A stretch of 64,000 nt of DNA. Source: Russula earlei. Lineage: Eukaryota > Basidiomycota > Agaricomycetes > Russulales > Russulaceae. The translations under genes were made by a program, and so were the position numbers. Where the stretch lies: assembly GCA_025769875.1 (NCBI GenBank), contig JAGFNK010000067.1, forward strand, positions 1 through 64,000, in the 5' to 3' direction. A model generated the notes under the pieces. The model saw only the letters and a program-made list of their open reading frames with translations, did not search any database and was not told the DNA's origin. Of this stretch, positions 10,024 to 27,987 are shown piece by piece. Position 1 is the stretch's first letter. Each line of letters opens with the position of its first letter.

Positions 10024-11630
10024 TCATTGCCGTAAGCACTTGATGAGTTTGTTGACGCCATCAAGACCGAAGCCCTCGTCCGCAGAGTAGCAGACGTACA
10101 TCGGCAGGTGCTTTGAGTGGAACTTGTTCTGGGAGGCCGAGTCAGCGTCATGTGGGGGCGCGTTAAGAGAAGCGGAACGTACCCGGAAGTCCCCGCGGCG
10201 CGTCAGACCTGTGAGACCGACGACCTTGTTGTAGGTCTTACTAAGCCATGTGATCTTCCAGCCGCTCAGGTTGTCGACAGGTGTAAGCGTGTCGGATGCG
10301 GTGATGCCAAATGTCACGGCGACGCCACTGTGCCGGGAACCGGAAGGAGTGGACTTGCCAGACGAGCTCTGCGAGCTTGCGGGAGAATCAGAACGACCCG
10401 AGTCGACGCTTGAGGAGCGCGACTGGGTCGAGTCCTCCTGGATCTTACGGGCGACTTCAAGGTCCGTCTGCGACCACACAAGCGCTCCGTCTTCCGATTT
10501 GCGATCCGGATCGTCTGACGGTACACCCTCGTCCTGGATGTCTGCCATCGCGCGATAGATGATCATCTCCGAGGTGCCCCGTGGTGCGTTCGGGAAAGAC
10601 ACGGCATTCTTGATCTGGTACTGTTTGTGGTGGATGCTAGTGAGCACGAGGATGGCAACGATGTCGGAACCCTTCTCGGCGATCCAGTAGCGACGGTGCT
10701 CAAAGTCGAGCCAAGGTTGGAAGGACGTCTAATGAGAGGCGAGGCGTGGTCAGAGGACAAGAGAGGGGGGGACAAGTGGCGAGAAAGAGACTCACGGAAG
10801 CAATCTGGATGCCGGTCTTGCTCTTCTTCCAGTTGGCAATGCCTTGCTCAACCTGAAGCTTCATCGCGTCGGTCCATTGCTCAGACTGAACCTCACGAAC
10901 TTGAACGTCCTCGCGCTCAGCACGACGAAGGTTCTTCTTGAAGTCCTTGACCTCGGATCCTCCACCGTGAGAGTGAGCAAGCTCGACGACCGAACGCGGG
11001 TCGAGAAAATCTTCAACGATACAGCTGAGAGTACTCCATCCGAATATGGAGCCTTGAGCACCAAGAACTTGCTCCATCTGACTGTCGAACGCAAAGCCAG
11101 ATGGGGCGGAGCTTCTGAGACTTGGCCCAATTGATGAACGCGGCGCATGTTGCCTCCAGGGCAGCAGGGTCGGAAACTATCGGGTTACCCCATGCGAAGA
11201 CGTAAGGGTCGGATCGGAGATAGCCTTGAACGGGGGGGAAGGAGGATTGGGGAATGGGAACATCTGGACGCCAAATCTTGTAACGACCAAACTCTAGCCA
11301 TGACGTAGCCGAGGAGGAACCATACTGGGCAATGAGGTCAGCGATACCCGCCTTATCACCAGTGGCATTGTCAGCCTCGACATCGGCGGCCTGCTGAGAA
11401 CCAGAGGATTGCTGGAAGTCGAGCACATCAGTGTCGAGCGACGACTCTTGGGTCTCGGTATCAGGAGAGATGGTGTTGGGAGTGGACTCGCTCCGTGCAG
11501 GGGGACTGGGTTCTGACTGTTGAGGGGGGGAGTCGGGAGTTACATTGGAAGTCTCTGTTGGGCGCCAGTAGTCATTGATGGCATTAAAGACGGAGGTGTC
11601 GAATGGGATGCGTGAGAAGAGGGTGGCCAT
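10024..11630 (-). CDS. Free-standing DUF2156 aminoacyl-transferase-like protein (frameshifted)
   Basis: Belongs to the DUF2156 / LPG_synthase_C fold, the domain that transfers amino acids from aminoacyl-tRNA to lipids in bacterial MprF and in fungal ErdS/ErgS. Exons 11630-10796, 10728-10183 and 10128-10024 are joined by introns of 67 and 54 nt. The start ATG gives MATLFSRIPFD. Conserved stretches include TSWLEFGRYKIWRPDVPIP, SDPYVFAWGNPIVSDP, VKDFKKNLRRAEREDV, TSFQPWLDFEHRRYWIAE, IKNAVSFPNAPRGTSEMIIY, VTFGITASD, LSGWKITWLSKTYNKV, LTRRGDFR, and the C-terminal NKFHSKHLPMYVCYSADEG, which resembles the terminal F-x-P-x-Y-x-x-Y region of MprF-type enzymes. A roughly 90-residue Ser/Gln/Glu-rich disordered segment follows the first 30 residues, and another lies before VTFG. 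No aminoacyl-tRNA synthetase domain is fused. Exon 1 has one surplus base at about 11087 (between WLCV and the MEQVLG segment); skipping it gives 494 aa. Divergent from the hydrolase gene. Confidence 0.85.
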
Positions 11631-12516
11631 TACGGATAAAGGTGAGTGGCGTAAAGTGGGTAGAGTGTATGAGACGGGGATGGGAAAGCAACGCGTCTAG
11701 CGAGTGAGTGATGAGATGTTGAGAGGGGGACGGGCTGTGGACGGGTCCTTTATATCTGCAAATCAAGTGGCACCCTAGACCCACTTGAATCGGCATGTCG
11801 AGGGTCGAGAGGTGGGCGAGGTGCCAATCGATTGGACAACGAACTGTCAGGCTCAACTAAGCTGCTGGACTGGACACAAAGCGATGACTCATGGATGATA
11901 CATCGCTCTCGGTCGCCTTATCCATTGTCGGTCTCGGTCCCGCGATCTCCCGGGATCCCAGGCGGCAGCTCACTTTGTGCTTTGTCCTCCGTCTATCGCC
12001 TAATCCTCAACAAGTTGACAGTTGAAGACACACTGATGACGAGTCAGCAACCTGCGTTTCGGAGTTATTGACCTCGGATGAATTGAATGAACGAGGCCCG
12101 AACGTACCGGAGCATTTCGGTCATGATGATTAATGCACGATTATGTGAATAATCGGAGACCTGACCCACCCCTGTCATAGGGTCGACAGACCTCGGACCA
12201 CGGACCACGCACCAACACGAGCGTGTGACACAACACTCAAAGGAGTCCTAGGAAACGGAAACGTGATGTGATTGGACAAATTGAATGCGCTCTTGATCCC
12301 GACAACGAACGAGCAACGACGAGCAACGACGCAACGGGGGTGAGGGCGAGCGAGGGACTGACCGGGCCGTGACAAGTCACGTGTGCGGGAGATGGTTGCT
12401 CCATCGTCGCACTCGAGTTGCTCCATCACCCCTGCTGCGCATTCTCATGTTCCTCCTTACTTAGCCTCCTTCTTCGTCTCGATTCTGTTTCTGCTATCGT
12501 CGGCCTCATCCTCGCG
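11631..12516. promoter_or_regulatory. Shared intergenic region of the DUF2156 / hydrolase pair
   Basis: 886 bp between the oppositely transcribed DUF2156 and alpha/beta hydrolase genes, so both promoters must lie here. Contains the TATA box noted at 11749 and an AT-rich block with near-palindromic ATTAATGC/ATTATGTGAATAAT around 12129-12152. No coding sequence was recognised in it. Confidence 0.45.
11749..11754 (-). promoter_or_regulatory. TATA box of the DUF2156 gene
   Basis: Reads TATAAA on the minus strand within GATATAAAGG, 119 bp upstream of the DUF2156 start codon. The spacing suits a core promoter. Sequence evidence only. Confidence 0.45.
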
Positions 12517-14615
12517 ATGTACGACAAGACTCCCGTATACCCCCATCTACAGCACCTTGCTTGGGCTCACGAGCCATTGAAGTCTATTTATGTCTTTCAG
12601 CGCCTTCTCACCACCGTCCTCCTCGTGCCCTTCTGGGTCATCTACTACGCAATTCTTCCCCGCTCTTTTCGTCCTCGCCCTTCCTGGTCGATCACACAGA
12701 TCGTCATCGTCAAGTTTACGAAGCGCGTATCCAAGGTCACCGAAGTAGCTGGCGTCACGTGGGGAACAAGGGATCCCACACAAGAACCGGATGAACAGTC
12801 TCTCAAGGAAACACGCTTCGCTTGGGTGCCACCCCTTCCTGCCGAGCTCTATACAGGCATCGTGAACGATCTCCAAGTGACGCCCCAGAAGGTCGGCACA
12901 TTCATTTGGCCCAAACACCCGCCTGCTAGCGCGCGCTTGCGTGGCATCGTCACAAGTGGAGACGTTGGACTTTCATCGGAACGTCTCTACCTCAGACAAA
13001 ACGTCTCGGATGACGTGCGCACTTTGAACTTGCCACTTGACAAGACCTCTGACGGCTCCACGACCGTCACGTCTACGCCTGCTTCCAAGCACAAACTACC
13101 CAAGATAGACATCGACGTAGCTCAAGCACTTCCTTACGCCTCGGATAACATCCACAGCCTAGATCTTGAGGCAGGTGGCGCCGATTCCCCCTTACCGCTG
13201 ATTGGACTCTACCTCCATGGGGGCGGATATTGTCACATGTCCGCCCATGAGAAATCTGGCACCTCCCGTATTCCCCGCCGGCTCATGGAGGTACATCTCA
13301 CGCATAATTTGGTCACAAATATTTCGACCTAATCTGTTTCAACAGGACAAGCTTTTCCGGGAAATACATGGTATGTTATTTGAACTGGTCATTCTCTGAT
13401 CTTGAGTCATCTCTCCACAGCTGTCGAGTATAGACTTTTGCAACACGCACCTATGCCTGGAGCCCTCCAAGATGCTGCTGCCGTCTATGCGCATCTCGTT
13501 ACGAATCAGCTTGGCGCGCGTAAATGCCCTGACGGTAAATATCGTTATCCGGACTCGATTTCTCTCTCTTCCACACCCGCCCACCTCCGAGGAGCCATTG
13601 GCCGGGCTTTCGACTCTGAAACGTGTCTCGATAGTCCTACCATCGCGCCAAGTGCGATGGTTTCTTCAGCCGAGGTAGAACATCAACATGCTGAGAGCAT
13701 AGAAGGACATGGAAACCAAAGGGAGCTCATAGAGCCGTTTATCAGTGGAAATGACGACCCTTCACATGCGCCCGTCGGTCCTGTACATTTGACACATGCA
13801 AACCCTGACCCGATCACCGCGGCTCATCGGCCACGAGTCATCCTCATTGGTGATAGCGCGGGCGGAAATCTCGTTTTAGCACTTGCGCGTTGGATCAGGG
13901 ACGAGGGTGTACTCCCGGGCCCAGATGGGATGCTCCTGCTATCTCCCTCCTGTGATCCTTGTACGCATCGCTTGACCGAAAGTCACCTCTCGAAAGTTTC
14001 GCTGACGTGATCTGGATCTATCATCCAGCGCACACACTTCCGCAAGTCCCAGCCTCGCGTCGTCCACGGCCACACGCTGACACCGACTACCTGTTGGACA
14101 CGCCGGAACCACGGGCCTTACTCTCGCGCACGTTCCTTGGCCACCATCCGGTCGAGATGGTTTACTCACCGTACATCTCCCCGGCGAGCGAGTGGGTTCT
14201 GTCAGCGTTTCACGGTCAGGAAGGCTTGGAAGATCTGGAGCCATTTGGTCCACACGAAGACTCGCGTGATTACCGAGACGAGTGCATCAAAACGTACGAT
14301 TGCCCGGTGAGCGGGATCCGTACGTGTCCGAACGGTCACTCTCCAACAACCAACCCATACATCCGTCTGCCGCGAGGCATGGGCCTGTTTACCGACTTTC
14401 CCCGAGCTCTGGTCGTAGTGGGTGATGCAGAGCGGCTTGAGCGCGAAGTTGCAGCTCTAGAACGAGCGCTCGAGCACGATGGCGTGCGTGTGCGGATGGT
14501 GTGGGCCAAGGATGCCGTTCACGACGTATTGATCATGGCCGCATGGGACGAGCGAGTCCGTGAGGGCATATGGAAGGAGATTGGTAGGTGGGTTCATGAG
14601 ATTGCGGCGGAGTAA
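12517..14615 (+). CDS. HSL-type alpha/beta hydrolase (fold-3)
   Basis: A 641-residue serine hydrolase of the hormone-sensitive lipase group (alpha/beta hydrolase fold-3), which includes steryl-acetyl hydrolases and lipid esterases. Exons: 12517-13290, 13346-13370 (a 25-nt microexon), 13421-13960 and 14029-14615; all junctions keep the frame. The ATG opens MYDKTPVYPHLQHLAW. A hydrophobic segment near residues 27-48 (RLLTTVLLVPFWVIYYAILP) suggests membrane attachment. Catalytic features: the HGGG oxyanion motif (LYLHGGGYCHMSAHEK), the nucleophile elbow GDSAGGNLVLALARW, a probable Asp in LVVVGDAERLE and the His in AKDAVHDVLIMAAW. A long insertion rich in His/Ser/Glu sits between the oxyanion motif and the nucleophile. 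The gene appears intact. The substrate cannot be read from sequence; the neighbouring DUF2156 gene suggests an aminoacylated or acylated lipid. Confidence 0.88.
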
Positions 14616-25325: not shown

Positions 25326-25933
25326 GGTTATGCCCTGAAGCTCTAATTTGAAACCACCAACCTCAATTCTCAACTCTTATCAATTCTTGTCAATTCTCAC
25401 ATCTTCTCTGCCACTTCTCCTCTGAGGCTGAGAACTATGCATTCAAAGCCCTGCTATAATCACAATTGGAAATATCATATTTGGGTCCAATCAAGTTCAC
25501 CTTTGGCATATCCATGACATGGAACCATGTGGACAAATTGATATCACTCTGCCAAACTTCCTTCATTGATCACATCATACAATAATTTGGGCAATCCAAA
25601 GCTCACCCTACCAACCTCCCTATGATCCCTGGCTTGCAACTCCAACATGCAGACAAACCTGCCCCCATTATCCCAAGCATGTTGGCTTGGCAAAACACCA
25701 CACCATACCCAGCACTCATCAGCAACCTCATTTACATCACAAATGCCACATGCCCTGACATCTCCTTTGCCATTGGTAAGTTGGCATCATTCATGGACTA
25801 TCATAACCAAGAGCACTAGTCCACCATGATTTGCATCCTCTGCTACATTAAAGGAACATGAACACTGTTGCTCGCACTGGGCAGAACAAACCCTATAAAT
25901 TTTATTGGACACTCAGACTCCAACTTCACAAAC

Positions 25934-26554
25934 TGTTATGGCGTCGCGGCCGTAAGAGCGTTAGCTCAGAGTTCAGTGGGGCCAAGTCCCTGTGACTTGG
26001 TTCAAGGGTTCAGTGGGGCCGGCTCAAAGAGACCGGATCAAAGGTTTAGCATCTCAAGGCTAAGTCAGACAATGACTCAGTCCGCAGACAGAGTTGATCT
26101 TCTGGTTTTGCAGAAGAGGAGGACAATGAGAGAGAGGCAGAGGAGAAAGAGGAACACTAGGGTTCCTTGAGGTGTGCTTAGGTCAAGCAAAGTGTAGGCC
26201 AGCACAAGCGAAGTTGTGATTTGAGAGGGAGTACAGGGTAGAGGATGCGACAGGAGATGGGACAAAGCTAAGCTTGGGGCATTCCCCAGCTTCTACAGGC
26301 ACTTAAATACTGTATGTAGCGAGGCTGTACAGTACCATAAGCAGAACAATAGATAAAGGTAGACCAATAGCAAAAGTAACTCGACAATAGGTGAAACACA
26401 ATAAGTGAAACACAATAGATGAAACACAACAAGTGAAACACAATAGGGGATCACCATCAAGGGATGAAACAGTAACCACAGAGACAAGGATAACAAAGAA
26501 GAACAATAATGAGAGGGATTATGGACGAACTGACAAAGGGGGTAAACTACAACA
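25934..26554 (+). mobile_element. Solo LTR (621 bp) inserted in the Copia-type element
   Basis: Starts TGTTATGGCGTCGCGG and ends ACTACAACA, with CAAAC duplicated at both sides (25929-25933 and 26555-26559). Removing the LTR and one CAAAC copy rejoins the RNase H reading frame across the site, direct evidence for the insertion order. The right half contains about four imperfect 15-16-bp units of the form AATAGRTGAAACACA (26385-26445). The start resembles Gypsy-type LTRs I know from mushroom-forming fungi, which is recall and not a search result. Confidence 0.85.
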
Positions 26555-27714: not shown

Positions 27715-27987
27715 CCTAGGAAGATACTGTGGGTCACTGGGAACTCAGCAGTTCACTACCATCTCAGTGATTTCATTTTTCCCTATATTCACTTGAACAA
27801 CACCATTCAAAACTTTGTAGTTATATTATTGAGTGCCATTAATGTTAGTCTAGCAAATAAAAATGGCAGTCCATCAAGTGGTTCTTGAGTAATATTTTGG
27901 CTGGGGGTCATGCCTGGTGACCACCAAGATGGTAGTGAACTGCCAAGTTCCCAGTGACCCACAGTACAGGTCATATGGCCACCTAGG
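27715..27987. repeat. Inverted repeat, probable MITE or LTR remnant
   Basis: Arms of about 55-67 bp (27715-27769 and 27921-27987) begin and end with CCTAGG and share ACTGTGGGTCACTGGGAACT and CAGTTCACTACCATCT in opposite orientation. The right arm has a roughly 12-bp insertion near its outer end. The loop of about 150 bp is AT-rich and non-coding. No target duplication was found. Confidence 0.6.

Follow-up and report, generated by a model that had tools for sequence, protein, structure and literature searches.

A head-to-head DUF2156 transferase and HSL-type hydrolase gene pair in Russula earlei: a possible writer and eraser of an aminoacylated membrane lipid

What do two divergently transcribed genes, one for a free-standing DUF2156 protein and the other for an HSL-type serine hydrolase, do side by side in the genome of Russula earlei? 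We investigated the pair in a 64-kb window at the start of a 158,672-bp contig (the R. earlei assembly is 66.6 Mb), starting from an earlier note that the two proteins could make and remove an aminoacyl-sterol or other aminoacyl-lipid. The genes are head to head as the note had described, with their start codons 886 bp apart. We judge the chances about even that they are a conserved writer and eraser of an amino acid on a membrane lipid, which is most likely a sterol, a reading that rests on the gene structures, conserved linkage, ErdS-type domain kinship, predicted fold, and intact catalytic triad.

Among fungal sterol-modifying proteins, ErgS is free-standing, ErdH hydrolyzes ergosteryl aspartate (Erg-Asp), and Say1/Mug180 (PF10340) are serine hydrolases of sterol esters; the Erg-Asp pathway is reportedly conserved across higher fungi. 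In the pathway that we propose, an ordinary synthetase would charge the tRNA, the DUF2156 protein would take the amino acid from the aminoacyl-tRNA and move it onto the sterol 3-beta-hydroxyl, like the DUF2156 half of ErdS, and the membrane-anchored HSL-type serine hydrolase would cleave the resulting aminoacyl-sterol ester. In R. earlei, the DUF2156 copy that adjoins the hydrolase would stand at the ancestral position, frame-broken, with intact duplicates elsewhere. The sterol acceptor, the tRNA donor, the removal of the ester, and the direction of the duplication are what we infer here. By analogy, a writer accompanied by an eraser would have precedents in ErdS with ErdH in fungi and in lpiA with acvB in bacteria. 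ErdS, an aspartyl-tRNA synthetase (AspRS)-DUF2156 fusion, is described in two later papers as ergosteryl-3-beta-O-L-aspartate synthase (Yakobov et al. 2020, via PMC9437257 and PMC10449517), and ErgS, which is of DUF2156 type and depends on an independent synthetase, as ergosteryl-3-beta-O-glycine synthase (Yakobov et al. 2022, via PMC10449517). That paper reports ErgS in Ascomycota only, unlike the basidiomycete DUF2156 family studied here (PMC10449517). In bacteria, the lpiA synthase and the acvB hydrolase lie in one operon (PMC13197417).

The DUF2156 gene of the window scored 46.9 bits against PF09924 (cut-off 27.5 bits, with the model read through a frame break discussed below), and PF09924 was found in all 54 aligned DUF2156 relatives. 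No synthetase family was listed at E <= 0.001 in any of these 54 relatives, nor was one found in the window gene, so that an AspRS fusion such as that of ErdS is absent, and the free-standing protein of the earlier note is confirmed. A search for DUF2156-hydrolase fusions among the 54 DUF2156 and 42 hydrolase relatives found none. The family resembles ErdS in its DUF2156 domain and differs from it in lacking the AspRS domain; it resembles ErgS as a DUF2156-type, putative sterol transferase that would rely on a separate synthetase.

The note had also proposed a tree of the family with ErdS, ErgS, and MprF and structure prediction of the tRNA and lipid pockets. In the Protein Data Bank (PDB), the DUF2156 profile matched, along the domain, the C-terminal part of the aspartyl-tRNA synthetase chains 9w9e-g, which have the ErdS architecture (190 bits; E = 4e-55 to 1e-54), and 21 of the 37 residues invariant in the DUF2156 family are present in the AspRS-fused chain. 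No bacterial MprF chain was among the 8 PDB sequences matched at E <= 10. In its predicted fold, the family corresponds to the C-terminal transferase domain of MprF, the best among the fold matches listed. Kinship to the AspRS-fused chains rests on sequence, because these chains are absent from the best 50 Foldseek/VIA-align matches (library to April 2026). Judged by sequence, the DUF2156 family is closer to the fused fungal transferase than to MprF.

The hydrolase gene is intact, with the HGGG motif, the GDSAG serine, the Asp, and the His all present, and scored 85.9 bits against PF07859 with a rougher model that still read through the third intron; the deposited model P0121 scored 90.8 bits. 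The HSL-type assignment in the note is thus upheld, and its possible membrane segment is supported by a predicted helix at residues 25-47 and a best 19-residue hydropathy of 1.95, from residue 30 of P0121. Say1_Mug180 was detected at E <= 0.01 in 40 of the 42 hydrolase relatives, and the Agaricales relatives P0185 and P0207 exceed the PF10340 cut-off (38.8 and 42.0 bits). A sterol ester is a plausible substrate, and the proposed role, removal of an amino acid from a sterol, would be analogous to that of ErdH. A second apparent frame break, near 13960, was rejected, as relatives show a normal intron at 13961-14028. Protein and DNA searches of the R. earlei genome returned no second hydrolase copy, only distant 50-residue matches on contig C189, where two HSL-type hydrolase exon matches lie near each other (G000:C189:27129-31488). 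A Say1-like match in a single exon (G000:C5:275722-275850, 33.3 bits) is stronger than that of the window hydrolase. The 858-residue relative P0092 of Pleurotus djamor has an additional N-terminal part with no significant Pfam match, possibly a gene-model fusion.

The note had proposed a search for conserved adjacency. We tabulated protein matches (the best 120 of 213 and of 295 for DUF2156, and the best 120 of 173 for the hydrolase), took named species with both families among the matches listed, and scored contigs of equal size within one species as the same contig, the tables giving the longest contig per match. The two lie on one contig in 20 of the 38 species besides R. earlei (21 of 39 with it): 7 of 11 other Russulales and 13 of 27 species that we place in other orders. 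Random placement, with a 30-Mb genome assumed for all species, would yield about one shared contig. Linked Russulales include Lactarius vividus, Multifurca, Gloeopeniophorella, Lactifluus volemus, Artomyces, Auriscalpium, and Dentipellis; linked genera from other orders include Blastosporella, Crassisporium, Cyathus, Coprinellus, and Cylindrobasidium. Linkage is tightest in Blastosporella, where the tags of the two genes are two apart on 10,173 bp, and on a 5,470-bp contig that apparently carries both, as judged from equal size and source of the entries.

We abandoned the idea of a hydrolase missing from other Russula species because the DUF2156 protein encoded on the 5,470-bp contig groups with those of Russula ochroleuca and R. 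vinacea (94% support in the Shimodaira-Hasegawa-like approximate likelihood ratio test, SH-aLRT, under the 95 mark); no named Russula besides R. earlei was among the best 120 of 173 hydrolase matches. A negative control for linkage based on the additional DUF2156 copies of other contigs was also given up, because it would be circular. Among the matches listed, Boletales appeared with DUF2156 only, and two DUF2156 genes are apparently on one contig in several species, for example in Amylostereum (270476), Vararia (25493), Peniophora CBMAI 1063 (318922), and Cylindrobasidium (70219).

In R. earlei itself the writer gene of the pair is broken by a single base near 11087, a break found in none of the other copies, which lie on contigs C2 (510,455 bp) and C39 (193,347 bp), both intact, and, as a partial copy 97% identical to that of C39, on C1341. 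The locus may therefore be decaying in this species, with the window writer a pseudogene and the head-to-head arrangement without a present role here. This is quite possible, if short of even chances, and is compatible with the other readings; the intact paralogues elsewhere favor it as well. However, the read-through of the window gene retains all 37 family-invariant residues, and its ratio of nonsynonymous to synonymous substitution (dN/dS) is 0.24 against C2 and 0.20 against C39. Because these values resemble that between C2 and C39 (0.25), the break would be recent or an assembly error, and it may be either. Apart from the break, residue conservation and dN/dS make the gene look maintained, and other species retain the pair on one contig.

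Copies from the window, C2, and C39 group together in a single clade (99% SH-aLRT). The C2 copy retains both introns and is therefore a DNA-derived duplicate. Because relatives keep both genes on one contig, the ancestral site is probably that in the window. When 22-kb neighborhoods were compared, the window shares with C2 the DUF2156 gene and ~230 bp of its 3' flank, and with C39 the DUF2156 gene and two repeat-like stretches from the 25-28 kb part of the window; besides DUF2156, no gene is common to the window and either neighborhood at E <= 1e-8. The C2 and C39 loci are mutually syntenic, with stretches at ~76-90% DNA identity (G000:C2:142500-164499 vs. G000:C39:127500-149499). Frames flanking the DUF2156 gene are long in C2 and apparently broken in C39, which suggests that the C39 region is a decaying segmental duplicate. 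Window positions 27724-27913 and 25913-26376, in a low-GC part (20-28 kb, 42-48%), match sequence near the C39 locus at 84-92% identity, the first also C1341, and are probably dispersed repeats.

Several observations weigh against a dedicated pair. The writer adjoining the hydrolase in R. earlei is the frame-broken one, and the hydrolase falls under the Say1_Mug180 cut-off, unlike its relatives above (18.1 vs. 21 bits; P0121, 17.0 bits). No contig is shared in 18 of the 38 species, for example Amylostereum, Vararia, Hericium, Peniophora, Lyophyllum atratum, Crucibulum, and Pleurotus djamor; Agrocybe pediades and Coprinopsis cinerea were scored as unlinked with entries apparently from different assemblies. 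Loose cases were scored as linked (Ephemerocybe, 31 tags apart; Hohenbuehelia, 366), several shared contigs exceed 1 Mb, and the count of 20 was set against random placement only, not an unrelated gene pair, in species that share ancestry; neighbors can persist by inherited synteny without shared function. What speaks most against obligate pairing is that, among the matches listed, the hydrolase occurs in 34 named species, which we take to be Polyporales, none of them with a DUF2156 match there. The DUF2156 protein could then be a sterol aminoacyl transferase and the hydrolase a general esterase of the endoplasmic reticulum or lipid droplet (acting on sterol acetate, a glyceride, or a xenobiotic ester), adjacent to it by inherited synteny. 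The Polyporales, the unlinked species, and the top structural matches of the hydrolase, generic HSL esterases (TM-score ~0.4 by query length, up to ~0.7 by target), agree with this, but linkage kept both within Russulales and in other orders, and the contig of only 5.5 kb that apparently holds both genes, do not, and we regard it as rather unlikely.

We find it improbable that the pair puts the amino acid on another lipid, such as a glycerolipid, in the manner of bacterial MprF and partner hydrolases. The fold matches to MprF C-terminal domains point that way, as does the lpiA/acvB operon (PMC13197417), in which a synthase likewise adjoins a hydrolase; the substrate of those bacterial enzymes is phosphatidylglycerol, however, and sequence groups the family with the fused fungal transferase and with no MprF chain. 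For the writer/eraser pair as the note had framed it, the balance is mixed: linkage and ErdS-type kinship support the making and removing of an aminoacyl-lipid, whereas the broken writer, the unlinked species, and the Polyporales hydrolases speak against it.

Feature coordinates are given in Table 1. Minus-strand frames at 1216-2816 of the window resemble, by eye, a Dhh1-type DEAD-box RNA helicase.

Table 1 Features of the DUF2156-hydrolase locus in the R. earlei window
Feature	Position	Strand	Basis or remark
Free-standing DUF2156 (PF09924) gene, candidate tRNA-dependent lipid (sterol) aminoacyl transferase	10024..11630	-	Start codon at 11630, stop ending at 10024
DUF2156 gene introns	10129-10182, 10729-10795	-	Both GT-AG
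One-base frame break in DUF2156 gene	11087 (approximate)	-	Intact copies on C2 and C39
886-bp stretch between both start codons, candidate shared promoter	11631..12516		Gene models
HSL-type alpha/beta hydrolase gene, 641 amino acids	12517..14615	+	Deposited NCBI model P0121
Hydrolase exons	12517-13290, 13346-13370, 13421-13960, 14029-14615	+	Three GT-AG introns
Predicted N-terminal membrane helix, residues 25-47	12589..12657	+	Hydropathy
HGGG oxyanion-hole motif (HGGGYC, residues 234-239)	13216..13233	+	H, G, G invariant in 42/42
Predicted nucleophile Ser412 (GDSAGG)	13855..13857	+	Invariant in 42/42
Predicted catalytic Asp579 (GDAERL)	14424..14426	+	Invariant in 42/42
Predicted catalytic His611 (DAVHD)	14520..14522	+	Invariant in 42/42

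A bolder extension, which we hold to be unlikely, is that Agaricomycetes have a third fungal sterol-aminoacylation system, with a free-standing ErdS-like transferase, a linked and dedicated HSL-type eraser, and an aminoacyl-sterol other than Erg-Asp or ergosteryl glycine (Erg-Gly). If the writer/eraser reading is true, mushrooms, ectomycorrhizal genera included, would reversibly tag their membrane sterols with amino acids drawn from translation and would keep writer and eraser as neighbors, and the free-standing basidiomycete DUF2156 family would gain a testable product and a partner.
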